Shown here one piece after another: positions 1,184-60,580 of a stretch of DNA of 64,000 nucleotides (position 1 is the stretch's first letter; every line of letters begins with the position of its first letter). The notes beneath the pieces were generated by a model. The model saw nothing but the letters and a program-made list of their open reading frames with translations. It was not told the origin of the DNA and did not search any database. The stretch is from positions 1,240,001 to 1,304,000 of the forward strand of contig OX359197.1 of NCBI GenBank assembly GCA_947172415.1, read 5' to 3'. Source of the DNA: Chondrosia reniformis. Taxonomy: Eukaryota; Porifera; Demospongiae; Chondrillida; Chondrillidae. The translations under genes were made by a program, and so were the position numbers.

Positions 1184-4100
1184 ATGGAGGTAAATTAAAA
1201 CGTTACTTCTGGCATTTGGATCTACTAGCTATAGAATAGTACTTCTGTATGGATATTTAGGGTAAATACATTTTGTATAAACGACCTCGAAGCGGAGCTG
1301 TTTTCGGAATTCGAAGTCGATTGATTTTGATCGTCGATCACCGAAATTCACTATGGACATCGACCAAACGTAAATCTGGTGAAGCGTATTTTAATTCATG
1401 TTGGCTTCCCTGGGCATGTAGCTATATGCTGTGTCTCAAGTTTTCAGAAAATTCATTGCTCCTATTGAGACGTTTTTCGCCCCTTATCGAAAATCTATCG
1501 ATTCGTATATATAAATTTTAAAATGATCGGACGATTTTGTAACTTTGCGGCTGGTATCGGGCTAAACAACATCAAATGCAGTCAAAACTTATAGTCTTAG
1601 AAAAGTGTTTGTTAATTGTGATATGGGGACCCTTAAAAGTAATGTAACATGGACCTACAGTCCATTAGGTGTAAAAATGTTATTACAGACTTTCCGCTAA
1701 TAATATATTAATGGGTGAATGATTCTCATTCAACTTTGCCTTTGTACTACGTATTATACTAATTAACCACTAATTCCTACTTCTTGTAGACAAAGAGTAC
1801 TGTAGGATTTAAAAGACAACATATGAATGGTTTTGTTTGAGATGTAGTGTAAAAGGTGCATATAAAAGGTGTAATTATACTGTTGGAGCAGTCTTGATGT
1901 AGCATACACAATGATATATAGACTACTATAGAGTACTATAATATATACATGTCAAGGATTCACAAAGGATCAAGATTCCCAGGGTCACTGATGAAGGGCG
2001 GAATTCCCAGAAACAGCTGTCTGGCCCAGTGGAGCAAAGGAAGAAAGAGAAGACTCTTGTATCCTCATTCCAAGCTCTCACCAGGATTATAGTTCCCTAT
2101 AGGCTTTTTAATTTTTGCAGAGTAGCATAGCATGTAGGAAAATGTTATTCATGTATGAATTACTATATATGTACATGTAATAAAGCTGCCCATGCTAGTT
2201 GAGTGTGTATTGTATCATATCCTAATGACACATTTGTGAACTTCTAATTAACTTAGTATATACTGGTAGTCTTAAGGGTGCATGATATGATTTGATGTGT
2301 TGTAACTTGTTATTGCTGTCTGCTGTAATTTGTAATTGATAATTATTTTTGAATCGAATTCTTGAAAACATTGACTTGATCGATATTTTATCAAATTTCT
2401 GGTGCAACCCACTGCTGTATATACATAGGTGTAAAAATTTGAGCTGCTGTAATATCGTATATATTAGCACACATACATATATAGTTAATGAAATGATTCA
2501 TTTTTGGGCTTGGGCTTAAAATACATGTAAAATATGCATTTGCTGTACATGTGCCAACTAGTATGGATGTTCAATAATTATTGATAAAACTCGTGACACA
2601 ACTCAAGCTATACCCATAGGTAGCATATGTAGGGCCATGTATATAAACATTCCTCATCATCTTATATTACTTAGAGTAAAAAAACAGTGCAGTCTGAATA
2701 TCAAGACTTTGCATTTAAGTGTTCTATAACCTCAACAGTAAGTCAATTATGTCAGTCATTATATACCAATTAGTCCTTACATTATTATTATTAGTGACTC
2801 ATGGCATATATATACGTATATTTATACCCTCAAGAAAGATGCTATATTTATATATAGAAAGAGAATCATAGAGTTGTACATGTATATAGTGCTACTGATT
2901 TATATTAAATACATATAATAGTGAAGCATGCCCCCAAATTGGCCTTGTGTTTCTTAACTTATAAAGTTCATACACACAACACTTCAATTATAATAATAAT
3001 TACGTATGTGTGTCTATAATATACCCATATGTCCAGTGGAGAATTCGAAGAGAAGGAGAAGGAGAAAAACACTTGTATCCTCATCCAAAGCTCTCAATAT
3101 AAGCTTCTATAGTTCTATGTAGTTAGATGTAACATATAAGAAAAAAGGTGTGTTAGATTATTAAAACAGATTATGAATGTGTAGACATTTCTATATACGT
3201 ACTTACTTAGTACATATTGTATAGTACATATTGTATAGGACAATTTACTGCCTTAATTCCCTAACATTTACTAAAGTTCAACACGCAATCTATTCCCAAT
3301 ATACTCCAGGAACCCAAAGAAGAAAGATTATCCAATGCACCACGAGTACCTGAATGGACAGACTTTACTTGTCTGTCTGAAAATAACCAAAAGTTTGTCA
3401 AGGATAGACTACCAATTCTCTTTAAAGACGATCCAGATGGAGTTAGTTTTATTGTTACTTCACATAAGTTGTGCCTTTCCTTTGAATGATCTCTTCATCA
3501 CTCTATAGAAAAATCTAAAGGCAGGAAGTTTGTTAGTTTCCGAAGAGGATTCTCAGAGCCTTCCTAATCAGACTTTCATTAATGATGTAAGACATGAGCT
3601 TCATGGCACTACTAATGCTATTGAAAGATGGAACATTAGGTCTGGAGGGAATTTCTGGAGTCAAGGTATTACATGTATATATGGGCATGGTTTTACAGTA
3701 CATGACACATGCACCTAGATTTAGATTTAGCTAGAGAGTTAAGGAATTATATATAGAAGAAGACAGAGACTCCCAAGGTCACTGATGAAAGGTGGAATTC
3801 TCAGAAACAACTGTTTGCCCTATGGAAAAAGGGAGAAAAGTATATTCTCATCCATTTTTTTTAATAATTATAAGTCTATATTTGAAAATAGTCCATTCTA
3901 TTTATATTTTTCTATATCCAAAAAATTACTATAGAGTACATGTACTCCTATTAATGTGCAGACCCTTTAGAATATGCCGCACCACACACACACTTACTAT
4001 GGTTAAACACATAAAAAGGCATAAATAAGGGTCTATATACTGATTAAATGGGATGGATGCATATGGTCAGGGTGAGGATATATAAATGTATATACGTACA

Positions 4101-19041: not shown

Positions 19042-20750
19042 TTCACCGTGTCAATTAGGGACATTGGGCAGAAAGTAGCTGTTTTGCAAATACCACTACA
19101 GAGTCAGATGTACTAGAGTGTTACCCTCCACTCTAATCTGGCCACTACTGCTTATATCCATTTGGGCATACCCCCTTAGGTCCCGGCTGACAAAGTAGCA
19201 CCAGCGTAGAGCACACCCCCACACACATACACACACTATTTGTGTATATGTACTAAGAGAGTAAATACGTTTAATACAGTACCACTGTATTGATTTAATG
19301 ATGTCTGTATATTGTACAGAATGTTCCAAAGGACTGTCCCCAGCTATTCCCCAATCCACTCTCCACTCTTGGTTATCCAGTTCACAGTGGAATGGTCTCT
19401 TCAAATAGAACCCTGAATCTCACTGTCCGAAATCTTGTGAATTATAATGTGAGTTTTCCTATAATAAATTTAAAAGTACACATATACGTACATACATATT
19501 ATTTCAATAAGGTTTTTAAAAACTTAAATGTGAATGGTCTTTTACTTAATATGAACCAGTAACCAGTCAATTACAGCATAGATATACGTAATTACATTTC
19601 TTACTTATAATAACTGCTTCAGATAAACAAGAATTTATCCTTAAATACATATACTTTTCAAGAAGTACATACGTATAAGTGAATACAGTACCACCGAAAA
19701 CTCTTGTATCCTCATTCAAAGCTCTCACTAGCTTTAGTTCTCTATAGGCCTTTACTCTAAAATACGTATGTATACACAGTGAATCACATTCTGAATCAAT
19801 ATATGTGTAGCGGCTTCACTAGCTGGTTCAGTGTTTTTCTATAGTGTTTACTGGTACAAAGAAACTGCTATATACAAAAACAATGCCATATTTATATGTA
19901 CAGTTTTACATTCACATTTCATTATGGCCTTTGCACAGCGTTTATTCAATTAGCCCCTCCTTTATACAGTGTGTAATATATCTTACTGTGTATATATTCT
20001 GTACATACTGGCCATTGACCTTTGTTATGTATTCTAGTGTCTTATGTAGTCAGCAAATACTGTAATTCCTTACTGTACGTAGGTTCATATTGGCTCAGGT
20101 GAAGGCATTTTAGTGGAGGAAATTGGTACAGTCAGGTACAATTCAAACTTTATTAATATCCTGATGTCAAGTCTAGCCTCCATCACACTGACTGTCATAG
20201 TGGTGGTTATAGTACTCATCGTAGTGTGTTTGTTGTGTCACTATAAGAAAAAAATCCAAGAAACCAAAGTGCAGGCATATTAGGGAAATGGAGCAATTTG
20301 AGTTGCAGAAGGAGGTTCTTAACCAGCAAGTAGAAAATGTATTATCACAAATGCATCTCAATTACATGGTTGGTAAAGAAGCATAACATTTGATGAGACT
20401 GTAATAAAACCATACACATTGTGGGAATGTATATATCATAATCAGGACACACCTATTATATACATATGTTAAATATACAGAACTTAGCTATACTTTGTTT
20501 CGATCCATGTAATTGTTGTGTTTCTCTAGAAACTGTCCAAGATGAAAAACAAACAAAAGCAGCCAGTAACTATGAAAATCCATATGATGTTTTGGATTTT
20601 GAAGACCAATTGCCAAAGATGTACATTGAAAAGAGTAACTCGCATGTTTCTGACTCATTTCAATCACAGTATGACTTTGAGAGATATGTAGAAATGACTG
20701 GCAGGAGAGCATCTGATTTAAATTGGGACTTTGATGATCCAAGAGTCTGA

Positions 20751-30172: not shown

Positions 30173-32732
30173 TTAACTGGGAAACTTTATGTTCGGTAGC
30201 TTGATTCCTCCAGTTTGTAAGTTCTTGACAGCTGATATTGCTCTGTTTGGAGCAGAGCTGACAGCACTCTACAACAAAGAAGAGGGAAATTAAGAGGTAA
30301 CACAAATCTTTATCTACAAGGCACACATGTATTTACAGCAACAAGTGTACTGCGTTATCCGATTTGGCAAACATTTTGATTTTATGAACACATCAATGTC
30401 TGATAATTATAAAACAGGGTCACTGATGAAGGGTGAAATTTCCAGATACTGAGAAATAACTATCTAGTCCAGTGGGAAAAAAAGATGGTTTGAAACTGTA
30501 TCCTCATCCGCAGCTACATATATAAGTTACAAGTCTATAGGAAATTGTCTATTCTAAGTATGTTTCTTTAGCCTTACATTGATATATCAACTATAGGAAA
30601 AAAGAATACGTATATGTATACATGTATAAACTGTAATTTCCTTTAATAGGAACATTGAGTACTATTAATACATTAACTTTCTGAGGACCAAAAGAGTGCA
30701 AAAGATTTCTTATTGTAATGTAGTGGAGAAGAAGAAAAGTAAGAGGAGAAACCTCTTGTATCCTCACCCAAAGCTCTCACTAGGTTTAGTTCCCTATAGG
30801 CCTTTTACTCTAAAGTAGAATTTAGCATGTAAGAAAAATTGTGCATCGATTATTCATGCACACACCTTTACAACGCCAGTGACATTTCCTTCAGACTTTT
30901 CCAGTTTATTTTGTGCTTCTACGTGAGTCATGATCTCATTGTGACTTGTCTCCAGTACCATTCCTCCCATGCATATCTCTTGTAGGATATTGTGCACTTT
31001 ATCTACATGGAAGATGAGGTCCAACTCGCACACATTCTCAAACACCTTGTCCAGTGTCTCCACAAAAACCTACATACACAATGAAAAATAAAAATGAAAT
31101 GGTATATCGGGAATTGCATGCGAGGGAAATACATAGGATTCACAGAAGATCAAGATAAAGATAAAGAAAAAGACAAAGACTCCCAGGATCACTGATGAAG
31201 GGTGGAATTCCCAGAAACGGCTGTCTGATCCGGTGGAGAAGAAGATGAAAGAAAGGAAAAGAAGAAAGAAAAGACTCCTGTATCTTCATCCAAAGCTCTC
31301 TTCAGGTTTAGTTCCCCTATAGGCTCTTTTACAGAATAGGCATAGCATGTAGGAAAATGGTATCTTAGATTTTCATAGATTGTGATTTACCCAAATTACA
31401 GGTAAAAGTAAACATTGTGGTTAAAAGAATGTGAGATGAGGCTTTAGGTGTGTGGACTATTATACAGAATTACTGAGGTACCAAATCAATGCATGTCAAA
31501 AGATAGCTAATGTGGGCAAAACTTGCAACCTCCATTCTTTAGACACATGTATTCAATTCCTGATATATGGTAACATATTCTAGGAACACAAAAATACAGG
31601 ACCCTATGTCTCTTTCAAGTGACGTATTATGGCATTACTAGTAGTTTATTACCACAATGCTATAGTACCATAATGCTGTAATACCACAGTGATAGAGTAT
31701 CATAATATTATACCACAGTCATAGAGTACTATAATATTATACCACAGTCATAGAGTACCATAATATTATACCACAGTCATAGAGTACCATAATATTATAC
31801 CACAGTGATAGAGTATCATAATATTATACCACAGTCATAGAGTATCATAATATTATACCACAGTCATAGAGTACTATAATATTATACCACAGTCATAGAG
31901 TACTATAATATTATACCACAGTCATAGAGTATCATAATATTATACCACAGTCATAGAGTATCATAATATTATACCACAGTGATAGAGTACCATAATATTA
32001 TACCACAGTCATAGAGTACCACAGTGATATAGTACTAAAGGGCTCGACTTTCGGCAGGTACAGGAGGCTCACCTGAATGAGGTCAAGGATACCAAGTTCA
32101 CTTTCAGAGTTGTCCACGCAAAACACAAAGTACAGTGTTGCGTAATGTCTGTATATTAGTTTGTGGTCCCCAGAGCCAAGTAGACTACAGAGAGATGACA
32201 GCTGTAGACAACTGCAATTCATGTCCATAAGCCATATTCATCATAAGTACATAAATTCCGCCATTTTTACAACACCAAAATGGCGGACCTTTCTTTAGCT
32301 TCTAAACACACGATTTTTAGTAGGGTGGCGATCATTTGTATATAATTAGACTACTGATAAGATTATTGTAAACATGTTTCTGGCACTTGAAGACATATCC
32401 TGTTTCTTTAGCTTACCTTTGTTGAACCTCAATAAAGTTACAAGCAAGATCATCTCTTCGTGAAACTTGATGAAAAATCTCTTTTATTATGTGCTGCTGT
32501 TCTTCTTCCGACTAAAAATGTAAAATAATGCAAACAGTCCTGTTATGCAATACTTGTGATTCGTCAGAAAAGATGCAGTTGGTCAATGGTGGATATGATG
32601 GGAGAGAATGTAAAATATCAAAGCTTGGCATATGAAATATGAAATAGGGCATTGTCAACTTACGTAATGCCCAAAGAACTTTAACAGGCGAGGCTTGCCC
32701 TGGTTGTTAAACACTAGGATAGCTTTAATCAT
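30173..32732 (-). CDS. AP3S1/AP3S2: AP-3 complex subunit sigma
   Basis: Five exons: 32732-32664, 32511-32417, 32184-32073, 31069-30866 and 30268-30173. Phases agree at every junction (0, 2, 0, 0) and the total is 191 residues, the usual size. The start MIKAILVFNNQGKPRLLKFF, the core GSGDHKLIYRHYATLYFVFC, ESELGILDLIQ, VCELDLIFHVDKVHNILQEI and MGGMVLETSHNEI are near-identical to animal AP-3 sigma. The tail AISAVKNLQTGGIKLPNIKF is the sigma-3-specific extension. It is the small longin-fold subunit of the AP-3 adaptor, which sorts cargo from endosomes to lysosomes and related organelles. It is divergently paired with pyruvate kinase. Introns hold R1 repeats and a tandem array. Confidence 0.96.
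31140..31380 (+). repeat. R1 repeat, well preserved, in AP-3 sigma intron
   Basis: The order of parts is as in the 1955-2150 copy, from AAGATAAAG...GACTCCCAGG through TTCCCCTATAGGC to GGCATAGCATGTAGGAAAATGG. It lies in the intron between exons 3 and 4 of the minus-strand gene, so it is antisense to that transcript. Confidence 0.8.
31186..31231 (+). ncRNA. Type I hammerhead ribozyme motif, covarying copy
   Basis: Stem I GGATCA (31186-31191) pairs with TGATCC (31226-31231) in six Watson-Crick pairs; the copy at 1982 has GGGTCA with TGGCCC, so both strands changed together. CTGATGA is at 31192-31198, GAAA at 31214-31217, and stem III ACG-GC-TGT leads to GTC at 31223-31225. This double change is the best evidence that the fold has been under selection in the family. 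Confidence 0.75.
31640..32035. repeat. Tandem array, about 29-base unit
   Basis: About a dozen copies of a unit like ATACCACAGTCATAGAGTA with (C/T)ATAATATT, in the AP-3 sigma intron close to the donor of exon 3. Confidence 0.85.
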
Positions 32733-32839: not shown

Positions 32840-40740
<7,901 letters not shown>

Positions 40741-42638: not shown

Positions 42639-43459
42639 TATCATGATCGCAACAAACAACCCTTATCACTTCATAGATATGTATAGTTAAAGCCAATATT
42701 TACCTGTATCTTCATCCAAAGCTCTCTCCAGGGTTTAGTTCTCTATGTTGGCTTTCTTACAAGAGTAGGCATAGCATGTAGGAAATGGTGTGCATATTTG
42801 ATTTTTTAATGTGTAGTTAAAGCCAATATTTAGCCTACAGTTTTTTTGCTGAAGTGAGCTGCCTTCCTTTCCTTCCCTTTGGTCAGCTGTATATGTATGT
42901 ATACATATGTAGCTGCAGAAATTTTTGGATCTTCAAATTACTGACTACTAAAATTGACTCTCTGGAGATTCAAGTTTGCAGTTTTTTAGAATAGCTTTAT
43001 TATTGTTGATGAAGACCTCCAGGTTGAAATATTCAATCATTGATTCAACAAGTGTTGCTGATGCTCAATAAGTCATGTATGACCCAGTGGAGAGGAAGAT
43101 AAAAGAAGGAAAAAGAAGGTAGAAAAGACTCCTGTATCTTCATCCAAAGCTCTCTTCAGGTTTAGTTCCCCTTATATAGGCTCTTTTACAGAATAGGCAT
43201 ATCATGTAGGAAAATGGTATCTTAGATTTTTCATGCAGCGTATACTCTACCATTTTATACATTCTTAGTGCAAGATTCAGTGAAATCTCTCTTCTTTGGA
43301 TGTTTATATATGTTGTCAAAAGATGGACCAGTTGTACATTTTAATCTGTACATATTCTACTGGCAAGACAACTAACAATGTTTATAAAGTGAACACTATA
43401 CCAAGTAGTAAAGTTCAAAGTTCAAAGGTGAAACCCCACTAGGCTACTAATTATGTACA

Positions 43460-59734: not shown

Positions 59735-59900
59735 GTAGATAAATGAGATGGAATTCCCCAAAACAGCTGTGTCCAGACAAGTTGAGCAGAAGAGAAGTAG
59801 AAGGAGAAACTCTTGTATCCTCATCCAAAGCTCTCACTAGGTTTAGCTCCCTATCTTTATGCTAAAATAGATGTAGCATGTAAATGGTAGATTATTAATG
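59735..59900 (+). repeat. R1 repeat lacking the CTGATGA part
   Basis: From TGGAATTCCCCAAAACAGCTG through CTCTTGTATCCTCATCCAAAG to GTAGCATGTAAATGG. Confidence 0.75.
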
Positions 59901-60339
59901 TGTATAATATATTCTAATGCCATGGCCATGTCTCCTATATTACAACAGTTAAAAATATTGCCTAAAGTACTGTATATACGTATGTATATATACGTATATA
60001 CAGGAGAAGATGTGACAGGGGCTTTGGACTAGCAAGATTAGGTGAAATTTTCCCATCTGGTTGGATTATAGTGAAATCTGCCTAATTCAGCTACTTATGT
60101 AGGGTACCTAATTTTACTGGCTGAGGATTAGATGGATGACCACATTATCGGGGCTTAAAATAAAATGAAATAATGAAATGTTTAGAAACGATTGAAACAA
60201 CCACTTTAAGCAAGCAACCCATCCTAGGATGACTACTCAGGCTTAACAGTGTAGTGTCCTTAATTATTAGGTAAACATACTGTATGTACATACATACATA
60301 CGTATTTAGGAATACATGTTTGGAAAATTTATAGATATT

Positions 60340-60580
60340 CTAAAACACCATTTTCAACATGCTACATCTACTATAGAGGAAAAGGCCTATAGGGAACTAA
60401 GCCTAGTGAGAGCTTTGGATGAGGATACAAGAATCTTCTCCTTCTTTTTCTCTTTTTTCACTTCTGGGCCAGATAACTGTGTCTGGAAGTTCTGCCCTTC
60501 AACAGTGACCCTGGGAGTCTTTGTTTTTCTCTTGGCCTTTTGTGAGTCCTTATGTATGATTAACGTGCAAGTCAGGATGT
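60340..60580 (-). repeat. R1 repeat, minus strand, with mutated hammerhead
   Basis: In complement: CCCAGGGTCA, CTGTTGA (for CTGATGA), a GGG hairpin, GACA (for GAAA), ATC, TGGCCC. Stem I is still pairable although the catalytic boxes are lost. The 88-codon frame over it is a by-product. Confidence 0.75.

Follow-up and report, generated by a model that had tools for sequence, protein, structure and literature searches.

Copies of the R1 repeat in the window and in the genome

The window, 64,000 nucleotides of chromosome 9 from the kidney sponge Chondrosia reniformis, contains a number of copies of a dispersed repeat of about 200 nt, here called R1, of which the copy at 1954..2153 carries the letters of a minimal type I hammerhead ribozyme. 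A BLAST search with the flanks of this motif returned the query and 11 further places in the window, which bears out the earlier description of a dispersed repeat with at least ten copies. The features of the motif-bearing copy and the other R1 copies in the window are the following (kind of evidence in brackets where several kinds or placement by eye apply; consensus positions refer to R1):

1954..2153, plus strand: R1 copy bearing the motif, from AAGGATTCAC to TTATTCATG (letters, BLAST, alignment)
1982..2027, plus strand: minimal type I hammerhead motif (letters, chance descriptor, dimer fold)
2021..2022, plus strand: predicted cut GTC^TGG, consensus 80/81 (layout; 5' ends of other copies cluster there)
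3030..3096, plus strand: R1 copy (TGTCCAGTGGAG) starting, with a one-base gap, at the predicted cut (placed by eye)
3755..3838, plus strand: 5' part of an R1 copy with a diverged motif, stem III ACAACTGT and GTT at the cut
19696..19753, plus strand: 3' part only, from about consensus 106
30415..30449, plus strand: R1 piece, CTGATGA present, GAAA side disrupted
30722..30858, plus strand: R1 copy truncated at about consensus 83-95
31157..31376, plus strand: R1 copy with its motif at 31186-31231 and stem III strand ACGGCTGT
35122..35280, minus strand: R1 copy starting at the predicted cut TGGCCCAGTGG, following unrelated sequence
42703..42804, plus strand: 3' part only, from about consensus 114
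43080..43235, plus strand: R1 copy of a young subfamily, starting at the predicted cut TGACCCAGTGG, following unrelated sequence
59750..59854, plus strand: R1 copy truncated at about consensus 58
60335..60551, minus strand: R1 copy whose core is damaged (CTGTTGA, GACA)

The genome searched (assembly odChoReni1.1; 117,379,552 bases in 15 contigs) yielded 3249 first-look R1 candidates, 40 of which were scored. A first alignment comprised 30 copies, and a later collection, drawn from all loci and the window, comprises 128 distinct copies: 98 include the 5' part and core, 29 consist of the 3' part alone and one of the 5' part alone. The 3' end, which includes TTAGATTWTTCATG, is constant, reading TTAGATTATTCATG or TTAGATTTTTCATG, with at least 11 of 14 letters matched in 63 of 115 copies. 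Like a SINE, R1 is short, dispersed and non-autonomous, its copies sharing one 3' end and varying in 5' truncation. In 39 copies, direct repeats in the flanks show a weak excess in length (mean 5.28 versus 4.54 in shuffled sequence, the former reached by 0 of 200 shuffles); few are long. By eye, R1 has an A-box-like stretch at TGGCCCAGTGG and no clear B box.

R1, at about 200 nt, has no conserved frame, and the reverse transcriptase with GIY-YIG frame of Penelope-like elements (PLEs) is absent from it. An open frame in the consensus initially suggested a coding exon with an eIF4G-like motif. This was rejected: Pfam gave 0 families and PDB a single match at E 0.15, an insert in the purine tract puts the young subfamily out of frame, and many of 150 scored protein matches contain stops. 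The open frame fits a T-poor purine tract as its cause.

With regard to insertion sites, R1 copies favour alternating TACATGTA-like sequence; their 5' flanks often terminate in CATG or CATGT, and their 3' end continues into CATGTATA. Separately, a stretch of about 62 kb holds four occurrences, 94-100% identical, of the motif-bearing copy with its flanks (G000:C9:1179549, 1190747, 1218934 and 1241960), a local segmental duplication that extends into the window.

The hammerhead layout, its conservation and its predicted fold

The motif at 1982-2027 reads GGGTCA-CTGATGA-A-GGG-CGGAATT-CCC-A-GAAA-C-AGCT-GTC-TGGCCC. Stem I is formed by GGGTCA (1982-1987) and TGGCCC (2022-2027), six pairs with one U.G among them, and stem II by GGG (1996-1998) and CCC (2006-2008); CTGATGA occupies 1988-1994, GAAA 2010-2013 and C 2014, and stem III consists of two pairs, with AGCT at 2015-2018 followed by GTC at 2019-2021. 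The strand at 2013-2020, ACAGCUGU, is palindromic, that is, self-complementary. These letters contain CUGANGA, GAAA, UH at the cut and the stems in type I order with the ends in stem I, so that the complete type I layout with a tiny stem III proposed in the earlier note is confirmed, and its coordinates and its remark on an unusual A.A opposition are both correct. This opposition (1995/2009) is step 10.1/11.1, which in hammerheads is usually an R-Y base pair; in R1, it is A.A in 88 of 94 copies and paired in 1 of 94, with no G-C.

These 94 copies were aligned through the core and were chosen partly by core-containing queries, and are therefore a biased set. Within it, the columns of CTGATGA, GAAA and GTC have 88-98% consensus, a core conservation that supports the hammerhead claim. 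CTGATGA, GAAAC and GTC are all intact in 45 of 94 copies, and 39 of 94 combine the core with at least five stem I pairs and three stem II pairs. No stem covariation was found in the 94 copies (pair 43-84 is GC in 70, AC in 14, GT in 6 and AT in 2). The window copy at 31157..31376, with an entirely Watson-Crick stem I (GGATCA/TGATCC), had suggested stem I covariation, a suggestion that is unsupported across the 94 copies.

The covariance models, run over both the window and the genome, count against the hammerhead claim. Rfam gave zero matches at the gathering threshold over the 64-kb window and no hammerhead at E<=10 on either 601 nt or 59 nt around the motif. Genome-wide, RF00163 produced at least 73 scored matches, at least 51 of them over the cut-off, and RF00008 at least 46 scored matches, none over the cut-off; among the matches listed for either model, none lies in the window. 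With at least 73 other sites listed, RF00163 is functional on this genome yet blind to R1.

How often such a layout arises by chance was gauged with a relaxed hammerhead descriptor that tolerates a mismatch in the basal pair of stem II. It found 2 sites in the window (both strands, 128 kb) versus 3 across 549 Mb simulated with matched dinucleotides, and a chance origin of the motif is unlikely. As a monomer, the R1 motif has a folding energy no better than that of shuffles (z +0.54). As a dimer, the lowest-energy predicted fold of the window or the consensus motif is a double hammerhead with an 8-bp stem III, and the minimum-energy dimer of two Rfam-recognised hammerheads of this genome is likewise a double hammerhead; the monomers of all four motifs favour a similar misfold. 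Window and consensus R1 both have the palindromic, very short stem III of PLE-type dimer hammerheads, and the same GAAACAGCTGTC is present in the stem III strand of 23 of 23 Rfam-matched loci inspected in this genome. According to one review, double hammerheads depend on a stem III loop that is palindromic and, for eukaryotes, on tandem copies (PMC6466107); among the collected loci and in the window, no adjacent same-strand R1 units were found.

One could hold that the motif is an accident in an ordinary SINE with no ribozyme history, a reading in keeping with the lack of an Rfam match and with the unremarkable monomer fold. It would also agree with a comparison of R1 with an Rfam-matched hammerhead element (one locus, L076), in which, beyond short chance matches, homology is confined to two stretches of the core, 13 nt (GAAACAGCTGTCT) and 8 nt long. 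We consider such an accident very improbable, given the rarity of the layout in simulated sequence, the palindromic stem III with its double-hammerhead dimer fold and the 5' ends at the predicted cut described below.

One R1 subfamily, of the type found at 43080-43235 in the window, looks young and comprises dozens of near-identical copies: with the 3' query from window 43125-43235, 31 of the 41 matches listed tie in score, just behind the query's own copy. It carries the purine-tract insert and a changed stem I with A.C at pair 43-84, and the predicted fold of its dimer contains no double hammerhead. The A.A step, the absent covariation and the broken stem I pair of this subfamily are real points against present activity. 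As a separate observation, the near-identity of its members suggests recent activity of the subfamily.

The 5' ends of R1 copies

Most near-full R1 copies (52 of 70, most found by core-containing queries) start at -5 to +4. This main 5' end lies about 80 nt upstream of the cut and is promoter-like, with TATAAG beginning 31 nt upstream of position 1 in the minority of copies that have a 5' extension; we infer that it is the transcription start. Copies that start about 80 nt upstream of the cut derive from uncut RNA, and because many copies do so, the hammerhead is not needed for the spread of R1. The candidate put forward in the earlier note, a ribozyme-driven non-autonomous element, accordingly divides in two: a ribozyme-bearing element is supported by the minimal type I layout in a short dispersed repeat and by copies starting at the cut, and 'ribozyme-driven' is not, since 52 of 70 near-full copies start at the promoter-like end. 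For an Anolis PLE, one study likewise describes no reads at its cut site and cutting that is unnecessary in vitro (PMC11167929). The 5' extension, with TTTTTGGCACCAAAA, the TATA-like box and CTAGATTTAGCATAGAGAGCC, was observed at loci L061, L127, L108, L052 and L013.

If self-cleaved RNA is reverse transcribed, copies starting at the cut are expected. Boundaries were scanned in 48 R1 copies found without the 5' part (in the window, with 3'-half queries or incidentally in other loci); a scan with lenient gap costs ran into unrelated sequence and was discarded. In the unedited machine tally of the 48, 16 copies received no call, 15 boundaries fell at or below 15, one at 16-30 and 16 at 31-83. 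Nine of these last 16 fall in the 6-nt bin 76-81 (P 1.7e-5 versus a uniform spread), a bin whose width was chosen after the data had been seen, around a cut site named beforehand; without one match held to be chance, the count is 8 of 15 (P 8.3e-5). The eight machine-called cut-site copies are L094, L062, L103, L106, L092, L033, window 43080 and window 35280 (minus strand), and L091, L109 and window 3030 were placed at the cut site by eye, so that three of the copies in the window (43080, 35280 and 3030) start there. A wider, hand-made and less objective tally has 11 copies at the cut and 11 elsewhere within 31-111 (11 of 22; P 1.2e-7). For this tally, the call at 81 in L106 plus 195 was removed as chance, the three copies placed by eye and further truncations from other scans were added, and L095, L096, L099 and L105, which have internal deletions, were excluded from the truncations. 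Among the best 40 matches of the R1 3' half, six start at the cut (L091, L092, L094, L103, L106 and L109).

At single-letter resolution, the cut-site copies differ. L103 and window 43080 have the machine boundary TGTA|TGR, and their element letters proper therefore start at 81. In L094, L062, L106 and L091, TGTC or CTGTC is retained ahead of TGG, contrary to what an exact cut would give, and the junctions of L092, L109, L033 and window 35280 share no letters at the cut. In six of ten cut-site copies, at least 11 of the 14 letters of the common 3' terminus are matched, and at least those six are therefore bounded copies.

A hammerhead, or a look-alike of one, might be present with the 5'-end cluster arising in another way, from a reverse transcriptase stop at the structure, a second transcription start or joining at short matches. 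The four copies in which TGTC or CTGTC agrees with the letters upstream of the cut speak for such a cause, as do R1 flanks rich in CATG and TGTA, which resemble TGTC, and the fact that the main 5' ends also cluster and owe nothing to a ribozyme. Three points count against it: a reverse transcriptase stopped by stem I would halt short of it, with ends at about 87, versus the observed 81 inside it; the consensus has no TATA-like box 30 nt above 81; and four of the cut-site junctions (L092, L109, L033, window 35280) are without shared letters. We regard this family of explanations as improbable.

The distribution of the cut-site copies was followed on a poorly resolved tree of R1 3' parts (115 rows, 118 columns). 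Ten cut-site copies account for 10 label changes (shuffled mean 9.8), and a topology that unites the ten in a single clade is rejected (AU p 0.0009). The tree thus places the cut-site copies here and there between other R1 copies, with scattered origins, and beyond that spread it tells nothing. Taken with these scattered origins, the cut-site 5' ends suggest that the R1 motif has cut RNA in vivo and that some of the cleaved RNA was reverse transcribed and inserted into the genome.

R1 could also be a relic, descended from a working hammerhead and inactivated by the A.A step and later stem changes, with the cut-site copies dating from an older active phase. This would account for the persistence of A.A in 88 of 94 copies with no covariation, for the mismatched stem I and missing double-hammerhead dimer fold of the young subfamily and for the near-full length of most of the 8 young copies inspected. 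Two observations sit poorly with it: one cut-site copy (window 43080) belongs to the young subfamily itself and starts at the predicted cut despite its broken stem I pair, and the cut-site copies are scattered on the tree, poorly resolved as it is, rather than forming one old clade. On balance, a relic seems to us rather unlikely.

A proposed mechanism and its relation to known hammerhead elements

R1 is a hammerhead-bearing non-autonomous retroelement of a known kind, and the footprint at the cut site is the interesting part. Our main reading, to which we give a probability of roughly 0.6, is that R1 is a non-coding, SINE-like retroelement with a dimer hammerhead whose uncut and cut RNAs were both inserted. 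In the proposed model, the R1 RNA would start near consensus position 1, about 31 nt below the TATA-like box, and carry the minimal type I hammerhead 41-86 nt from its start. Owing to the palindromic stem III strand, two R1 RNAs can pair; pairing in vivo via ACAGCUGU would give the predicted double hammerhead, in which each RNA would be cut after GTC at position 80. The 3' product would begin with TGGCCC and retain the R1 3' end, at which a borrowed reverse transcriptase may start; uncut and cut RNAs would be inserted alike, the cut ones yielding copies that start at the cut site. What the sequences show directly is the motif, the copies, the clustering of 5' ends at two places and the scatter of the cut-site copies; catalysis, pairing in vivo, the promoter and the partner enzyme belong to the model. 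To the fuller claim, that R1 is a hammerhead SINE whose Rfam-missed, dimer-type motif with A.A cut RNA in the living animal and whose cut product served as an insertion template, we would grant a little less than an even chance. If this claim is true, the genome keeps, in its R1 copies, a natural record of cleavage by a class of ribozymes with an in vivo role that has been called a mystery, and hammerheads with A.A at 10.1/11.1 escape current models. If R1 insertions keep the 5' ends of their source RNAs, cleavage would be readable from the genome alone, subfamily by subfamily.

Minimal type I hammerheads are dispersed in animal genomes and occur in the pseudo-LTRs of PLEs (PMC7761336, PMC6466107, PMC11167929). 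R1 shares with the minimal hammerheads of PLEs and Terminons the same core, the very short stem III and the predicted dimer via a palindromic strand. It differs from their carriers in being short, in having no reverse transcriptase frame and in occurring as single, non-tandem copies, and from their hammerheads in the A.A at 10.1/11.1 and in the copies starting at the cut. SMalpha of Schistosoma mansoni is a SINE-like retrotransposon with a type I hammerhead (PMC8490949) and, as far as its description allows a likeness to be drawn, is like R1 a short, non-autonomous, SINE-like carrier of such a motif; set beside that description, R1 stands out by its A.A step, by 5' ends at the cut site and by a TATA-like box upstream in place of clear pol III boxes.

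The non-LTR retrozymes of metazoans are tandem repeats that give circular RNA (PMC7229834). They resemble R1 in being non-autonomous retroelements of a few hundred bases with low GC and a type I hammerhead (PMC7229834); the size of R1 fits, and R1 differs in consisting, among the copies seen, of dispersed single units, with tandem 150-450 bp units absent. The words 'sponge', 'Porifera' and 'Amphimedon' are absent from the text of that paper. The ribozymes at LINE 5' ends (HDV-like and others) are also comparable, in that the cut sets the 5' end of inserted copies (PMC7761336). Theirs is another fold, and in R1 the cut gives a minority end that removes 80 nt, versus the normal 5' end in LINEs. 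Within a partial coverage of the literature, we found neither a description of hammerhead elements with copies starting where the ribozyme cuts nor work linking hammerhead ribozymes with Porifera, and sponge hammerheads seem little described in that coverage.

This sponge also has type I hammerheads that Rfam recognises, for example at G000:C10:5005281-5005325, at C3:1599837 and 1600191 and at C6:4724360 and 4724715 (set L068-L090). Some form same-strand pairs 352-355 bp apart and some opposite-strand pairs; their carrier, a repeat in which its own hammerhead arm recurs in inverted orientation, looks retrozyme- or PLE-like. Pattern matches L001-L007 were dropped as positive controls, as no hammerhead was among their Rfam matches at E<=5 and the pattern gave 7 matches versus 5 for the reversed control pattern. 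GIY-YIG matches number 38 in the genome, in frames of up to 772 aa. Three of them (G000:C6:3935966-3936181, C12:806474-806689 and C2:5829689-5829790) lie in open frames of 742-772 aa and are candidate Penelope-like elements; the GIY-YIG matches are compatible with PLE machinery in this genome.
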